Under the pieces are notes generated by a model. The model was not told where the DNA came from. It saw only the letters and a list, made by a program, of their open reading frames with translations, and ran no database searches. Below are positions 13,014 through 27,121 of a stretch of 64,000 nt of DNA, piece by piece; within the stretch, counting starts at the first letter, position 1, and each line of letters starts with the position of its first letter. The translations under genes and the position numbers were made by a program. Source of the DNA: Synergistes jonesii (GTDB taxonomy: Bacteria > Synergistota > Synergistia > Synergistales > Synergistaceae). The stretch covers positions 124,001 to 188,000 of the forward strand of contig NZ_JMKI01000031.1 of NCBI RefSeq assembly GCF_000712295.1. The letters run 5' to 3'.

Positions 13014-13042
13014 TTGACAAAGCCGTCGGCAGGTGGTAGTTT
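13014..13042 (+). promoter_or_regulatory. Promoter of the cobalamin-riboswitch transcript
   Basis: TTGACA (13014-13019), 17 bases, TAGTTT (13037-13042). The transcript would begin around 13049, just before the riboswitch. Confidence 0.65.
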
Positions 13043-13049
13043 AGCATTG

Positions 13050-13357
13050 ATGTGTAATATAGCATCTTAATAAAGACATATCCGCGGAGTTAGGGAATCC
13101 GGTGAGAAGCCGGAACGGCCCCTGCCACCGTAATCGGCAAGCGGAGAGCGCGTACGTCGCCTCCGCAGACCGAGCCGCATTCAGCCACTGTCGAAAGATG
13201 GGAAGGCGCGGCCCGGGGAACCGAGAGTCGGGAAACCTGCCGCGCGATATACGGGCTTCAAGCGCGCAGAGGGCGCAGACAGCGGCTGACCGGCGAATAA
13301 AGACTGTGTAATTCTACGCGGGAGACGGCGTTTGCACCTCTCCCGCGTAATTTTTAT
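13050..13357 (+). ncRNA. Cobalamin riboswitch with terminator
   Basis: The conserved core AGGGAATCCGGTGAGAAGCC (from 13092), then CGGCCCCTGCCACCGTAA, is the cobalamin (B12) riboswitch signature, and GCCACTGTCGAAAGATGGGAAGGC further down matches the conserved P6-side segment. The expression platform is a ten-base-pair stem ACGCGGGAGA/TCTCCCGCGT (13316-13325 with 13339-13348) followed by AATTTTTAT, an intrinsic terminator. B12 binding should stop transcription before the BtuB-like receptor gene that begins at 13377. Confidence 0.92.
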
Positions 13358-20209: not shown

Positions 20210-21808
20210 ATGAAGAAAATGTTATTTGCGGCTTTATGCCTCGCAGCTCTGGCGCTCTCCGCGCGTCCCATTTCCGCCGCGCCGTCGGAGATCGTCGTCG
20301 TCGACAGGAGCGAATGGGAGAGGTTCGACCAGCGCCTGGGCGTAACTATGGGCTTCAACATGGAGATAGACGACAGCAACTCTGTAACGCATTTCCCGGA
20401 GAGCGCCTCGTGGCTGGGGAGGGAGAGATGGACGGATTCATATGAAACCTGCAATAACTGTGGTAAGTCGTTCCCGGCTGATATATCACGGCTGACTAAG
20501 GAACGTCTGGCGCGCGTCATCCCCGAAAAGTGGAGCGGCGCCGTGACCGTGGAGGTGCGACACGCTATAAGCCTGCCGGCAGATAATGCCTCAGTTACCG
20601 AGATGGGAGGCAATAAAATTGATTTTCCCGACGTCGTCAAATTCGAGCATCCGCTGATGGCTCCCCCTATCGGGACCTGGGATAACGACGTAATTGAGTT
20701 CGCATGGGAGAGGAGTATCTATGACCGCGAACTTAAAAAGGATGTATACATTGTTCCCGACGAGGACTTAAGATACACGGACACGCCGGATATGATCATC
20801 GCGCTCGACGGCGCTGGAAACGTCCACGCGGCGGAGCGGATATTCGGGCGTGGCATAGTGTACGATTATATTCCACACCGCCCTCTCCATTATGGATACC
20901 AGGCAATCTATTCATTCCTCAACGGCACCGTCGTCTTTAAGAAGGAGGACTTCCCTCTTGATCTCTATTTCGTCAAGCTCTCCACCGCCCAATATGAGAT
21001 AAGCGTTTCGGCCGATGCCTCCATGGGCGCCGTGACTCCCGCAGGGCCGCTCAAGGTGAACCACGGCGAGGACGCCTCATTTACGATAACGGCAAAAGAC
21101 GGCTGCCGCATCGCCGCCGTAATAGCCGACGGCAGGCGCGAAAGCACGGCAAGCCCCTTCGTATCGGAATACGCCTTCAAAAACGTAACGTCGAATCATT
21201 CGCTCGAAGCGCTGTTCGCCGAAGCCTCCGATCTGCCGGAGGTAAGCGCCGCTCCCGGCGTCACCGCGACGGTCGCGGACTATTCCAACAGCCGCGGTAA
21301 GGAAGCGGAGGCGCTGGAAAGAGGCGGCTTTGTGAGCGGAGACGCCGCCGTGAAGATAGCAGGCGACGGCACGGAAATGAAGGAGGGAACGTTCTGCGCC
21401 GACGAGGACGGCTACGTCTGCACGGTGAAATTGTCGAAGGAATGCGCGGAAGTGGCCGAGTCCGGAGCCCTTACGCTGACGGTGAAGCCGAAGGCGGGAG
21501 AAAAATTCGCTGTCGGCAGGAGCTATTACGCGCTCGTGCTGAACGCAAAGACGAACTATTACGACCTTTTCCCTGCGAAGCTGAACGGCGCCGGCTGTCT
21601 TGAGGCGACGCTTAAGCCGGTGGGCGACTACGCCGCGCTGAGCACGCTCTTCGTTTACTCGGGCACGGCGTCACCCGGCAAAGAGCCGCCAACGCCGGAC
21701 ACGCCCGGCGGAGGCGCCGGCCCGAAGTCGAGCGGCGGCTGCAACGCGGGCCTGGGCGCTATAGCGCTGCTGGCGCTCGCGCCCCTCGCCCTGCGCAGGA
21801 AGAAGTAA
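20210..21808 (+). CDS. Synerg-CTERM protein with one InlB B-like repeat
   Basis: 532 residues. Signal peptide (to about ISAA), a unique N-terminal domain of about 250 residues with a CNNCGKS Cys pair, a single repeat (YEISVSADASMGAVTPAGPLKVNHG...NHSLEALF) like those in the gene at 17278, a domain with charged beta strands, a Pro/Gly linker, and SGGCNAGLGAIALLALAPLALRRKK-type sorting tail. AGGGGAG precedes the ATG. Function unknown. Shared repeats and tails suggest it arose from the same family as its neighbours by duplication and domain shuffling. Confidence 0.8.
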   Translation: MKKMLFAALCLAALALSARPISAAPSEIVVVDRSEWERFDQRLGVTMGFNMEIDDSNSVTHFPESASWLGRERWTDSYETCNNCGKSFPADISRLTKERLARVIPEKWSGAVTVEVRHAISLPADNASVTEMGGNKIDFPDVVKFEHPLMAPPIGTWDNDVIEFAWERSIYDRELKKDVYIVPDEDLRYTDTPDMIIALDGAGNVHAAERIFGRGIVYDYIPHRPLHYGYQAIYSFLNGTVVFKKEDFPLDLYFVKLSTAQYEISVSADASMGAVTPAGPLKVNHGEDASFTITAKDGCRIAAVIADGRRESTASPFVSEYAFKNVTSNHSLEALFAEASDLPEVSAAPGVTATVADYSNSRGKEAEALERGGFVSGDAAVKIAGDGTEMKEGTFCADEDGYVCTVKLSKECAEVAESGALTLTVKPKAGEKFAVGRSYYALVLNAKTNYYDLFPAKLNGAGCLEATLKPVGDYAALSTLFVYSGTASPGKEPPTPDTPGGGAGPKSSGGCNAGLGAIALLALAPLALRRKK

Positions 21809-22809: not shown

Positions 22810-23652
22810 ATGAAACGCACGAAAATTCGCGCCGCCGTACTGCCGGCTCTGGCCGCCCTGCTTCTCTGCGCCGCCTCCGCATCGGCGGAGACGCTGAAAT
22901 TCACAGGCTCGCCAGGTTTTCTGCTATCGCCCATAATGGTGGTCGGCGTTTACACGCCTGAGGGGAATACCAACTTCGCCACGTTCCACCGCGGCGGCGT
23001 CGTCTCCTCCGGCGCGGATGGCGGAGAGATGCGCGTCGCCTTCGGCATCAACAACTCGGAGCGGAGCTACACTTATCGGTGCCTGAAGGCCTCCGGCGCC
23101 TGCACGATCAACCTGCCCTCGGTGAAGTATATGTCCGAGGCGGCGCTCTTCGGCCACTTCTCCGGGCGCCCCCTCTCGGGGGACGCGCCGCTTCTGCCGG
23201 CGAACGGCGGCTACCAGGATAAGCTCGCGCCCACCGGCCTGACGGCCCGAAAGGGCGAGGCCGTGAACGCCCCGATGATCGAAGAGTTCCCCATCTCGCT
23301 GGAGTGCGAGCTTGAGGATGAAGTAGCCGTCTCCGGAGGACGTCCGAACCGCCTGATGATTCTAAAGGTCAAAAAGGTATGGGCCGACGAAGCCTACATC
23401 GACGCGGGGGGCAAGATAAACCCGCTTAACGACGCGACGGATTCTTCGATAGTCTTCTATTCCAATTCGACGTCCGCGAGCGGCGGATTCTACGGCTACG
23501 GAGAATTCGTCGGCAAGTCCGGCGAGGTCTCCAAGCCGTACAAGGACGATAAGCCGGGCCACGGCGGAGGAAGTTCGAGCGGCTGCAACGCCGGCGCCGG
23601 CGCATTGGCGCTGCTGGCGCTGGCGCCCTTAGCGCTGCGCAGGAAGAAGTAA
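22810..23652 (+). CDS. Synerg-CTERM flavin-reductase-fold protein
   Basis: 280 residues; GGAGGGAG lies before the ATG. Signal peptide ending ASASA, then a split-barrel domain parallel to its neighbour: SPIMVVGVYTPEGNTNFATFHRGGVVS, ACTINLPSVKYMSEAALFGHFSG, NAPMIEEFPISLECELEDE, LMILKVKKVW, and a tail SSGCNAGAGALALLALAPLALRRKK in type. The pair (22066 and 22810) probably forms an exported FMN-binding couple, one free and one anchored. Possible roles are extracellular electron transfer or cofactor handling; that is inference. Confidence 0.75.
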   Translation: MKRTKIRAAVLPALAALLLCAASASAETLKFTGSPGFLLSPIMVVGVYTPEGNTNFATFHRGGVVSSGADGGEMRVAFGINNSERSYTYRCLKASGACTINLPSVKYMSEAALFGHFSGRPLSGDAPLLPANGGYQDKLAPTGLTARKGEAVNAPMIEEFPISLECELEDEVAVSGGRPNRLMILKVKKVWADEAYIDAGGKINPLNDATDSSIVFYSNSTSASGGFYGYGEFVGKSGEVSKPYKDDKPGHGGGSSSGCNAGAGALALLALAPLALRRKK

Positions 23653-23816: not shown

Positions 23817-24065
23817 ATGCTGAATACCAACGTCACAAATTTCAGACGGAATATTTTCGCTCTGCTGGAACAGACCATAAAGTATAACGAGCCGGTGAAC
23901 GTCAGCACGAAAGACGGGAACGCCGTAGTCATCAGCGAGGAGGATTACAACGATCTTATAGAGACATTGTACATCTCCTCTATCCCGGGCATGAAGGAGA
24001 AGATCGTTGAAGGGCTGAATACCCCGCTGGAGGAGTGTATAGCGGAAGATAAGGTGTCATGGTAA
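23817..24065 (+). CDS. yefM: YefM/Phd-family antitoxin
   Basis: 82 residues. The N-terminal TNVTNFRRNIFALLEQTIKYNEPVNVSTKDGNAVVISEEDYNDLIETLYI is the DNA-binding Phd/YefM fold; the C-terminus (SIPGMKEKIVEGLNTPLEECIAEDKVSW) would wrap the toxin. It overlaps the toxin start by seven bases, the usual arrangement for tight coupling. Mutual placement with YoeB makes this a type II toxin-antitoxin pair. Confidence 0.92.
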   Translation: MLNTNVTNFRRNIFALLEQTIKYNEPVNVSTKDGNAVVISEEDYNDLIETLYISSIPGMKEKIVEGLNTPLEECIAEDKVSW

Positions 24066-24328
24066 GCTACTCTGTCGTCTATACGAAGAAGGCGGCCGCG
24101 GATATTCCTAATTTAAAGGCCGCAGGATTAGATAAAAAGGCGCTTGCCCTGATAGACATCATCAGAAGCGACCCATTTCGGTCGCCTCCGCCGTATGAAA
24201 AGCTCTTAGGCGATATGCAGGGAGCTTATTCCAGGCGTATCAATCTCAAACACCGCCTGGTGTACGAGGTGGACAAGGAGCGCAATACGGTAAAAATCAT
24301 CAGTATGTGCTCTCATTATGATTTTTAA
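24059..24328 (+). CDS. yoeB: YoeB/Txe-family mRNA interferase toxin
   Basis: 89 residues of RelE-superfamily fold: YSVVYTKKAAADIPNLKAAGL, then the YoeB signature PPPYEKLLGDMQGAYSRRINLKHRLVYEVDKE with Glu, Arg and His catalytic-site residues and a C-terminal SMCSHYDF ending (conserved HY). It cleaves mRNA on the ribosome when free of YefM. A hairpin CGCCCC/GGGGCG at 24348-24366 lies between it and the convergent gene remnant. Confidence 0.92.
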   Translation: MVSYSVVYTKKAAADIPNLKAAGLDKKALALIDIIRSDPFRSPPPYEKLLGDMQGAYSRRINLKHRLVYEVDKERNTVKIISMCSHYDF

Positions 24329-24384: not shown

Positions 24385-25020
24385 TTATCTGTCAAATAGG
24401 CCCTGTACGGCTTCCGGCGACATTTTTTCTTTCAAAGCTTTCAGATAACCTGCAATAGATTTACGACTCACGCCCATTTTATTTGCAAGCAGCGGCATTG
24501 TATATCCGGGATCTTCCATCAGGTACTGCAACACTTGGCTCTCGCGATCAGTCACCTTGTTAGTCACCCTGACGACACGATCTTCCGGCATTGGAAGATA
24601 TTCAGATTTCAAAGCATTGCATATCTTTTCTATCCCTCGCCCCCAGCTTTCAAGTATCAGCTTCTTTCTCCCTGGATTACGCTGAGCGGATTCGACTTTT
24701 TTCTGCACGAGTAATGCCAATGTAAATGTTCTGTTCTCTTCCTTGAAGGGCAGGATATTCTTTGCCCTTTTCTCCGGATCGTTAAGAGATGAAAGCGCCT
24801 TTTTTGCCACGATAGAGAACGCCGTCATAAACTGTTTCGGTGACCTCTTCCACAAGCGCCTCGATGTCTTTCAGCTTTTGTCGTCAGTTCGTCAAGTCTG
24901 GCCTCGGTTTTCTTTAATTCGGCTTTTTGAGCAGGATTTTTTAAAATTTGTCGTCCTGCGGCTTTTGCTTTTTCGTCTTGACAAAGCGCTTGGGTTATAG
25001 TACCATTCGCTTTACCGACG
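24385..25020 (-). pseudogene. Decayed regulator/recombinase remnants
   Basis: The open part (24385-24855) has LESWGRGIEKICNALKSEYLPMPEDR followed by a winged-helix segment DRESQVLQYLMEDPGYTMPLLANKMGVSRKSIAGYLKAL. ESWGRGIEKI is typical of the C-terminal ATPase part of AlbA/RecG-like ATP-binding regulators, but the N-terminal DNA-binding and ATPase bulk is missing. Upstream, in other frames, lies coiled-coil-like KNPAQKAELKKTEARLDELTTK and, after a shift, LKDIEALVEEV, reminiscent of the C-terminal coil of large serine recombinases. The pieces are joined out of frame, so I call the whole a remnant. GC content is lower than in the surroundings, pointing to acquired DNA. Confidence 0.6.
24978..25006 (+). 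promoter_or_regulatory. Promoter of the tyrosine leader transcript
   Basis: TTGACA (24978-24983), 17 bases, TACCAT (25001-25006). A start near 25013 would put the leader ORF about 45 bases into the transcript. An inverted repeat CTTTACCG/CGGTAAAG with six T (25010-25039) overlaps the start region; if a transcript came from further upstream it would act as a terminator. Confidence 0.6.
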
Positions 25021-25058
25021 AAGAGCGGTAAAGTTTTTTGTTGCGAAAGGGGGCCGAG

Positions 25059-25160
25059 ATGATGGGAAAAGCGTTCGTAGGTAGCAGCTATTATTATCGC
25101 TATTACGCTTATCCCCGCATCTATGACGCCCCGGGGCTTTTCGCCGTTTCTGTGAAGTAA
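25059..25160 (+). CDS. Tyrosine-rich leader peptide
   Basis: 33 residues with AAAGGGGG five to eight bases before two possible ATGs (25059, 25062). Seven of twelve residues between positions 11 and 22 are Tyr (the run reads YYYRYYAYPRIY). A strong intrinsic terminator follows the stop by 24 bases and a symporter operon follows that. This is the arrangement of transcription attenuation by a leader peptide: ribosomes stalled at Tyr codons when charged tRNA-Tyr is scarce would favour read-through. A GCCCCGGGGC segment (25129-25138) downstream of the Tyr codons could pair alternatively with the terminator arms. No protein role is expected. Confidence 0.75.
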   Translation: MMGKAFVGSSYYYRYYAYPRIYDAPGLFAVSVK

Positions 25161-25184
25161 GCGTTACAAGCGATGGAACTTCAG

Positions 25185-25217
25185 GAACCGCGCCCGCAGG
25201 GGCCCGGTTCTTTTTTT
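25185..25217 (+). terminator. Attenuator terminator before the symporter operon
   Basis: GAACCG-C-GCCC (25185-25195), loop GCAG, GGGC-C-CGGTTC (25200-25210), followed by seven T (25211-25217). It is a textbook intrinsic terminator placed between the Tyr-rich leader peptide and the symporter genes. Confidence 0.85.
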
Positions 25218-25255
25218 ATATTAAAAGATTATTTTTGTGAAAGGGAGCGGTAAGG

Positions 25256-25357
25256 ATGTTCGGAACGGATCTTTGGGTGGTTTGCGCGGGGGCTTCTCTT
25301 ATTTGGGGTGCGGCGTGGTCTCTCGCCTCGATAGTGATAAGGGCGGCGGCGAGGTAA
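25256..25357 (+). CDS. Small membrane accessory protein of the symporter
   Basis: 33 residues with one hydrophobic helix (LWVVCAGASLIWGAAWSLASIVI) and a basic C-terminus. AAGGGAGCGG lies before the ATG, and the stop is one base from the symporter start. Small single-helix partners are known for several sodium symporters (MetS-like subunits; 'symporter small accessory protein'), and position and size fit. Too short to be sure by sequence alone. Confidence 0.65.
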   Translation: MFGTDLWVVCAGASLIWGAAWSLASIVIRAAAR

Positions 25358-25358
25358 G

Positions 25359-26819
25359 ATGTTCGCCTTCCTCCCCCTATGGATCGGCTACGCGCTCGCG
25401 CTCGTCGCGATCGCCAAGTTTTCGCGTGGGCGCGACGCGCTGCTGCCCGGGCGCGTCGGCGTCGCGGTCCAGGCTTTCGCCTATGTCGCGACTTATGTCT
25501 CCGCCGTCGCGCTCGTCGGCTTCGGCGGGCTCTGCTATCTTTTCGGGATGCAGATGCTTCTCGTCGCGGCAGGCAACGTGTGGTTCGGAACGTGGTTCGT
25601 GTATAAGTATCTCGCGTGGCCGACGCGCCTCTGGCAGAGAAAGCTTGCGGCGCGCACGCCGGCCGAGCTGCTGGCTAAGGCTTACGGCGCCCCGATGCTA
25701 CAGACTTTCATAGGCGCCGTTTCCACGCTGCTTCTCGTCGTCTACGGCTCGGCGGTCTTCAAGGGCGCGGCGGTGATGGTCTCCGGCGTCGTCCCGCTCT
25801 CCACGAACGCGGCGCTCGCGCTTCTCGTCGTGATAGTCGGCGTTTCGGTCGTCTGGGGGGGGCTGCGCGGCGTGCTTTACACGGAGGCGCTTCAGGGGCT
25901 GGTGATGCTTATCGGGGTGGGCGCGCTGCTCCTCGCGCTGCTTAAAGCGGTCGGCGGGCCCGTGGAGGGGATCGCGGCCCTCGCGTCGCTGCCGCCGGAG
26001 AAAGGCGCGGACAGGGGCTTTTTGGCGCTTTCTTCGGGGGGCGCTGGGCTCAACGTCATTTTCCTCGCGGTGGTCACCTCCGTCGGCATCTGGGCGCAGC
26101 CTCAGCTGATTCAGCGCCACTTCGCGCTGCGCAGCCAGGAGGAGGCGCGCCGCGCGGCGCCGCTAGCGATGCTCGCGCTTTCGGTGGTGGTCGGCGGCGC
26201 GTATTTCGCAAGCGCGCTTTCGCGCGTGCTTCTCGGCGGCGGCATAACGAATCCGGATACGGTGCTGCCGATTCTCGTGAATAGGCTGCTTCCCTCTTTA
26301 GGCCGGCAGCTCTTCGCGCTGGCGATCGTCTCGGCCTCCCTTTCGACGGCCTCGGCGCTGCTCCACATAGCGAGCGGCAGCCTCGGGCGAGACGTGCTGA
26401 AGAGGGAGCTCAAAGGCAATTCCTGGCGTGCGGCCGTCATCCTCTGCACGGCGGGCAGCGGCCTCTTCGCGCTGAAGAGCGGCTCGATCATCGCGGTGAT
26501 ATGCTCGACGAGCTGGACGCTTTTGGCCTGCGCGATAATGGCGCCTTACCTAGCGCTGCTGGCGTTCGGCCCGAGGGCCGGGGGCTTCGCCGCCTCCGCG
26601 GGCTCCCTCTGCGGTTTCGCCGGCTCGATTGCGTGGTACGCTGCGGCCTACAGGCCGACGTCGCTCTCGCTGACGGGGCTCGCGGCTCCGGGCATAGCCG
26701 GCGCGATACATCCGATACTTCCGGGGATAATTTTTTCGGCGGCCGTGATGTTCCTGCTCGCGAAGAGGGAGCCGGCGAAGGCCCCCGCCGAGGCCGAAGC
26801 GCAGAGGATCGGCGGATAA
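25359..26819 (+). CDS. Sodium:solute symporter (SSS family), possible tyrosine/aromatic amino acid importer
   Basis: 486 residues, about 12-13 transmembrane helices. The SSS pattern is seen in WFVYKYLAWPTRLWQRKLAARTPAELLAKAYGAPMLQ, GGLRGVLYTEALQGLVMLIGV, SVGIWAQPQLIQRHFALRSQEEARRA and IVSASLSTASALLHIASGSLGRDVLKREL. It sits in the inner membrane. The family gives sodium-driven import of varied solutes; the Tyr-codon attenuator upstream suggests tyrosine or a precursor as substrate, an inference. Terminator follows at 26827-26869. Confidence 0.88.
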   Translation: MFAFLPLWIGYALALVAIAKFSRGRDALLPGRVGVAVQAFAYVATYVSAVALVGFGGLCYLFGMQMLLVAAGNVWFGTWFVYKYLAWPTRLWQRKLAARTPAELLAKAYGAPMLQTFIGAVSTLLLVVYGSAVFKGAAVMVSGVVPLSTNAALALLVVIVGVSVVWGGLRGVLYTEALQGLVMLIGVGALLLALLKAVGGPVEGIAALASLPPEKGADRGFLALSSGGAGLNVIFLAVVTSVGIWAQPQLIQRHFALRSQEEARRAAPLAMLALSVVVGGAYFASALSRVLLGGGITNPDTVLPILVNRLLPSLGRQLFALAIVSASLSTASALLHIASGSLGRDVLKRELKGNSWRAAVILCTAGSGLFALKSGSIIAVICSTSWTLLACAIMAPYLALLAFGPRAGGFAASAGSLCGFAGSIAWYAAAYRPTSLSLTGLAAPGIAGAIHPILPGIIFSAAVMFLLAKREPAKAPAEAEAQRIGG

Positions 26820-26875: not shown

Positions 26876-27121
26876 CAGTTAACGGCCGGCCCGAACGCTC
26901 AAGTTAACCCGCAAGATGACCGCCAAGAAAATGTCTTCGATAAAATTCTGGTTTTCTGTGTGGAGCCGAGGTCAAAACGGGAGATAGTGGGTCATTTGGG
27001 ATATAAGGATTTAGGAAGCGTCACCCGGTACTATATCAAGCCCCTCCTTGAAAGCGGACGATTGAGGATGGCTATCCCGGGTAAGCCGAAGAGCCGAAAT
27101 CAAAGGTATATCAAAGCATAA
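26876..27121 (+). pseudogene. C-terminal fragment of an ATP-binding winged-helix regulator
   Basis: An 81-codon open frame without a usable start reads ...VFDKILVFCVEPRSKREIVGHLGYKDLGSVTRYYIKPLLESGRLRMAIPGKPKSRNQRYIKA and stop. This is the typical C-terminal winged helix of AlbA/RecG-like ATP-binding regulators or Fic-type proteins; everything before it is gone. A related but different regulator remnant lies on the other side of the symporter operon (24385-25020), on the opposite strand. Confidence 0.7.

Follow-up and report, generated by a model that had tools for sequence, protein, structure and literature searches.

A putative tyrosine-codon attenuator upstream of a predicted Na+-coupled tyrosine importer in Synergistes jonesii and other Synergistota

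The operon at positions 24978-26819 of the window (the whole stretch of 64,000 nucleotides of the Synergistes jonesii contig NZ_JMKI01000031.1 that was analysed) very probably carries a ribosome-mediated transcription attenuator which senses charged tRNA-Tyr and controls a predicted Na+-coupled tyrosine importer. All the parts lie on the forward strand. Classical ribosome-mediated attenuation is very likely the mechanism and the charging of tRNA-Tyr is very likely the sensed signal; tyrosine is the likely substrate of the symporter. According to the proposed mechanism, the leader would be transcribed by RNA polymerase as a ribosome translates a Tyr-rich ORF. With ample charged tRNA-Tyr, translation would proceed beyond the Tyr codons, hairpins 1:2 and 3:4 would form and transcription would stop near 25217. 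When charged tRNA-Tyr is scarce the ribosome would stall at these codons and cover segment 1, segment 2 would then pair with segment 3 so that the terminator is not formed, and a one-helix protein and an SSS symporter would be made. At the sequence level the support comes from the parts and their conservation, from exclusive and covarying pairings, from a segment 2 kept independently of the reading frame, from a swap of transporters behind the same leader and from the agreement between codons and targets in sister leaders; from these we infer the ribosome stalling, the read-through and the substrate.

A consensus scan gave a sigma-70-type, promoter-like sequence (TTGACA-17-TACCAT, 24978-25006) which is kept in the orthologues: where DNA upstream of an orthologous leader is available the exact TTGACA is nearly always found, the spacing is mostly 17 nt and the start codon is placed mostly 34-66 nt 3' of the -10. 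Directly 3' of the -10 of the window there is also an inverted repeat (CTTTACC-N10-GGTAAAG, 25010-25033), retained with changes in close orthologues only, which may be a 5' hairpin or operator candidate. The leader ORF (25059-25160) starts with ATGATG, has AAAGGGGG upstream and encodes the 33-residue peptide MMGKAFVGSSYYYRYYAYPRIYDAPGLFAVSVK. It thus combines a ribosome-binding site with a run of one codon type, and its seven Tyr fall, as the first-pass annotation had noticed, within residues 11-22 (codons 11, 12, 13, 15, 16, 18 and 22; control codons at 25089-25112 and 25122-25124).

Orthologues of the window-type symporter were found in 26 of the 188 Synergistota genomes compared, the named contigs including Synergistaceae, Thermovirga and Synergistes. 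The first-pass annotation had listed a promoter, a Tyr-rich leader ORF, a terminator and the genes for a one-helix protein of 33 residues and for an SSS symporter, and had seen in them the layout of leader-peptide attenuation. Each of these parts was confirmed, some with refined coordinates, and the layout gained support since the parts follow the same order in each of the 22 orthologues whose leader DNA is complete and the hairpins are exclusive and covarying; a partial 23rd leader (L032), whose contig begins within it, is consistent with this order. The annotation had named the lack of a Tyr-rich ORF before the orthologues as evidence against itself and the opposite was found, such an ORF preceding all 22. 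In these leaders Tyr accounts for 108 of the 264 positions in the stretch of 12 codons that leads up to the hairpin, versus 10 of 500 elsewhere. Moreover TAT and TAC interchange in the control region (78:30), which indicates selection on the amino acid and not on the bases. Towards the orthologues that are more remote, with 57-64% identity in the symporter, hardly anything of the leader peptide but its Tyr can be aligned, and the distant leaders L036, L040 and L041 have 2-4 control Tyr only.

The pairing regions can be placed immediately after, and partly within, these codons. The protector hairpin 1:2 (25113-25136) pairs CCCCG at 25113-25117 with CGGGG at 25132-25136 and overlaps the last control codons. 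The antiterminator 2:3 (25142-25192) has its arms at 25142-25158 and 25178-25192. The intrinsic terminator 3:4 (25183-25217), located between the leader ORF and the first gene, has its stem at 25183-25212, a T7 at 25211-25217 and an energy of about -20 kcal/mol; the terminator with T7 previously annotated is real and ends at 25217 as proposed, its start being moved from 25185 to 25183. Positions 25183-25192 are common to both, the antiterminator occupying the 5' strand of the terminator stem. The mutually exclusive hairpins that the annotation had suggested looking for by folding are thus present: in the predicted pairings the protector excludes the antiterminator and the antiterminator excludes the terminator, and folding recovers all three in nearly every orthologous leader, L026 being a weak case with no convincing antiterminator.

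In the alignment the terminator is paired in 91.9% of the cells with two-sided changes in 26 of them, and the antiterminator shows such changes in 17 cells; neither was reached by any of 500 shuffles, and in both the pairing drops strongly when the arms are slid. The protector is paired in 82.7% of the cells, with two-sided changes in three of its five pairs (4 cells), and was reached by 17 of 500 shuffles; its support is weaker because a one-column slide still pairs 72.7% of the cells. As the sequences are related, all these counts of two-sided changes are not to be read as probabilities. The possibility that the ORF regulates nothing and arose by chance beside an ordinary terminator is negligible. 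It would agree with the simple consensus scans for promoters and terminators, which in this region were near chance level, missed the terminator and for these reasons were set aside as evidence, and with the antiterminator by itself, whose fold from one sequence is not unusual (z 0.87). Nevertheless it is refuted by the conservation in 22 of 22 orthologues, together with the compensatory changes and the retention of the leader when the transporter differs.

In two orthologues (L028 and L033) the RNA segment around GGTGTTTTC..CGAA, which is the antiterminator strand, is conserved as DNA with the reading frame shifted, and this strand is therefore conserved at the RNA level, the Tyr run at the codon level. 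This bears on a different way of using a leader peptide, known from TnaC, in which arrest of the peptide senses tryptophan in the exit tunnel. A nascent peptide that similarly senses free tyrosine or another ligand would fit the short conserved leader and its Y-x-Y-x-P-like core. However, the residues outside the Tyr run are scarcely conserved, the number and position of the Tyr vary, the downstream part is in another frame in the two orthologues mentioned and in the sister leaders Tyr gives way to Phe, Trp or Pro according to the gene that is controlled, which makes peptide arrest quite improbable.

The two genes after the attenuator most likely encode a Na+-coupled tyrosine importer and its single-helix partner. 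The symporter gene (25359-26819) belongs to the SSS family (TC 2.A.21), as its product matches PF00474 (3e-27) and has an SSS-type fold: the AlphaFold model is all-helical (pLDDT 85.6) and its nearest solved folds are CHT1, SiaT, SGLT and NIS. A sequence search of the PDB gave no match. Assignment as a PutP or PanF equivalog was rejected, the scores being below the NCBIfam cut-offs (90.4 of 328 for panF and 59.5 of 515.5 for PutP). The 33-residue single-helix membrane protein (25256-25357) is present in all orthologous operons with the consensus MFGTDLWV..SGASLLWS..WS, and none of its 22 members has a credible Pfam or NCBIfam match. Several of the SGLT fold matches are complexes with the small protein MAP17. 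These human SGLT1 and SGLT2 complexes, which rank among the best matches to the fold of the symporter, also join an SSS transporter to a small partner, and by this likeness, one of architecture, a subunit role for the 33-residue protein is plausible.

A covariance model of the part of the leader after the Tyr codons, searched across the phylum, also found the leader in two genomes of the same genus which have no window-type symporter (G171 and G172). There it precedes an SSS protein of 521-527 aa with 25% identity to the window symporter, PutP-like by profile scores yet under every equivalog cut-off, and no small protein was found between this leader and the SSS gene. The DNA homology with the window covers 25047-25216 (81-82% over 170 nt), ends at the terminator and resumes from 27208 at the DtxR and helicase genes (73-77%); the transporter segment between leader and flank has no DNA homology to the window. 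Relatives of this PutP-type protein occur in 50 of the 188 genomes and the window type in 26, with no co-occurrence, and the leader is absent from the PutP-type genes at the loci of genus g38 that were read. The simplest reading of these two genomes is a non-orthologous replacement of the transporter with conservation of its presumed role and of the putative sensor.

The same model revealed leaders with other control codons. In G137 and G138 a homologous leader, with FYFYWFFTFPRSF replacing YYYYFYAYPRTY, lies upstream of aroE, which is accompanied by genes for TctC or TRAP transporters; these leaders (L070 and L069, respectively) have Phe, Tyr and Trp control codons (MGKALLNKNFYFYWFFTFPRSF...) before aroE and are a natural codon swap on the RNA scaffold of the Tyr leader. 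Leaders rich in W, F and Y (NVWFSFYYYFYFTWPAKLRERL) and with terminators were found in G001, G002 and G004 (L082, L083, L086 and L090), their targets being aroE, a type I 3-dehydroquinase (aroD-type) gene and TctC, or a DctP gene, which suggests regulated uptake of shikimate or quinate. In G122 a leader with a Phe run (L099, VSFFFSFFFSCGSPPG) precedes genes for a solute-binding-type protein, a DAHP synthase and an aroA-like protein (by sequence); this locus adjoins a TyrA gene. Repeats of Pro and Cys codons (NPCVPP, NPCPCP, LPCSPRP) mark a further set of leaders, also with terminators, in G009, G010, G124, G179, G182, G183, G184 and G187 (L071-L074, L078, L079, L084 and also L080). Their target was confirmed as proC for L072 and L073 and is alike by its N-terminus in four more; the gene downstream of L080 was not counted as proC. 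Many weak matches to the model, for example L075-L077, L081, L085, L087-L089, L091-L097 and L101-L105, resemble ordinary terminators or unrelated sequences and were left aside. The control codons read in the sister leaders agree with the target pathway wherever that pathway is known and, the leader of the window being Tyr-only, this points to tyrosine itself.

The different SSS protein behind the same leader and the match of sister codons to their targets strengthen the case for tyrosine as substrate. Nevertheless the leader shows the amino acid that is sensed and not necessarily the compound that is transported, and a Tyr-containing peptide or a precursor would fit as well. An attenuator that senses Tyr and governs the uptake of such a compound, or of another nutrient needed in tyrosine shortage, is an unlikely alternative. 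In its favour, SSS proteins carry many kinds of substrate, those with the nearest solved folds transport choline, sialic acid, sugar and iodide, the panF and PutP models score far under their cut-offs, and the aromatic sister leaders on aroE and aroD-type genes with TctC probably serve precursor uptake. Against it, the sister leaders of the common pathway mix Phe, Tyr and Trp whereas that of the window has only Tyr, as would suit tyrosine itself. In addition neither a prephenate dehydrogenase domain (PF02153; TyrA) nor a chorismate synthase (PF01264) could be detected in the host genome (G000, completeness 99.85%), so shikimate-type precursors would be of no help to it and import of tyrosine, the substrate we favour, would be essential. 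Both domains are likewise absent from the two genomes of the same genus (G171 and G172). Chorismate synthase is kept in 13 of the 26 carriers of the window-type symporter and the importer would therefore also serve apparent prototrophs, not being simply an auxotrophy gene; auxotrophy as the reason for this symporter was rejected on the same count (Fisher P 0.53). For the PutP type the association in this comparison is negative (P 4e-8) and confounded by one large genus.

Ribosome-mediated attenuators of the E. coli type control the amino acid operons trp, his, pheA, thr, ilv and leu. The present system resembles them in its promoter, its leader ORF with codons for the sensed amino acid, its set of protector, antiterminator and terminator and the predicted termination of transcription, and differs in the control codon (Tyr), in the target (an SSS transporter with a single-helix protein) and in the phylum. 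Tyr-specific T-box leaders of Firmicutes (tyrS, yheL) also sense the charging of tRNA-Tyr and some of them control tyrosine transporters; unlike the leader proposed here they bind the tRNA directly with no translation. A T-box leader was rejected for the window as no T-box covariance model matched, and there was no match to this or any other Rfam family at the gathering threshold in the operon, nor at E up to 5 in 24900-25360. A survey of 2005 (PMC1262725) lists tyrosine as a T-box-regulated pathway and histidine, threonine and phenylalanine as attenuator-regulated. According to the summary of Neshat et al. 2014 in PMC11802643, the AroR leader of the aroF operon of Corynebacterium glutamicum contains Phe-Tyr-Phe and responds to Phe limitation, Tyr availability being without effect; in that account it shares with the present leader a peptide with aromatic codons including Tyr and differs in controlling a DAHP synthase and not a transporter. 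The histidine leaders of the Bacillus cereus group, Peptostreptococcaceae and Erysipelotrichales (PMC9413887) are likewise leader-peptide attenuators outside Proteobacteria predicted by comparative genomics, with histidine codons and his operons instead. In the open-access papers of PMC that were searched, no description was found of a Tyr-specific leader peptide or of an SSS gene as the target of one. The mechanism is thus classical, and the Tyr specificity and the SSS target are apparently undescribed.

It seems somewhat probable that Synergistota use one attenuator scaffold with interchangeable codons and genes, that the Tyr form represents the first Tyr-specific ribosome-mediated attenuator and that the SSS and one-helix proteins form a new type of tyrosine importer. 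The scaffold would then carry Tyr codons where the target is a tyrosine importer, the leader being retained when one transporter takes the place of another; homologous leaders with Phe/Tyr/Trp codons would control genes of the shikimate pathway together with TctC or TRAP transporters, and Pro leaders of similar build would control proC. The proposed attenuator of the window would add an amino acid specificity apparently absent from the classical list of leader-peptide attenuators and place the mechanism in Synergistota, in many lineages of which the synthesis of aromatic amino acids appears to be missing. From the regulation, substrates can also be predicted for two SSS subfamilies that are distant relatives, and for TctC and TRAP transporters linked to the shikimate pathway. 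Moreover the codon exchanges found in nature on a single RNA scaffold open the rule of codon specificity to a direct test.

Other features of the window can be mentioned. A toxin-antitoxin pair of the Phd/YefM-YoeB type (23817-24328) lies upstream of the symporter operon, and two secreted proteins with a Synergist-CTERM sorting domain (TIGR04564) are encoded at 20210-21808 and 22810-23652. Downstream, between the symporter and DtxR genes, a 53-codon ORF (26960-27121) matches the C-terminal domain of Fic-like proteins only (PF21247, 2.9e-9) and may be what is left of a gene. A cobalamin riboswitch (RF00174, 67.6 bits) is located at 13017-13258.
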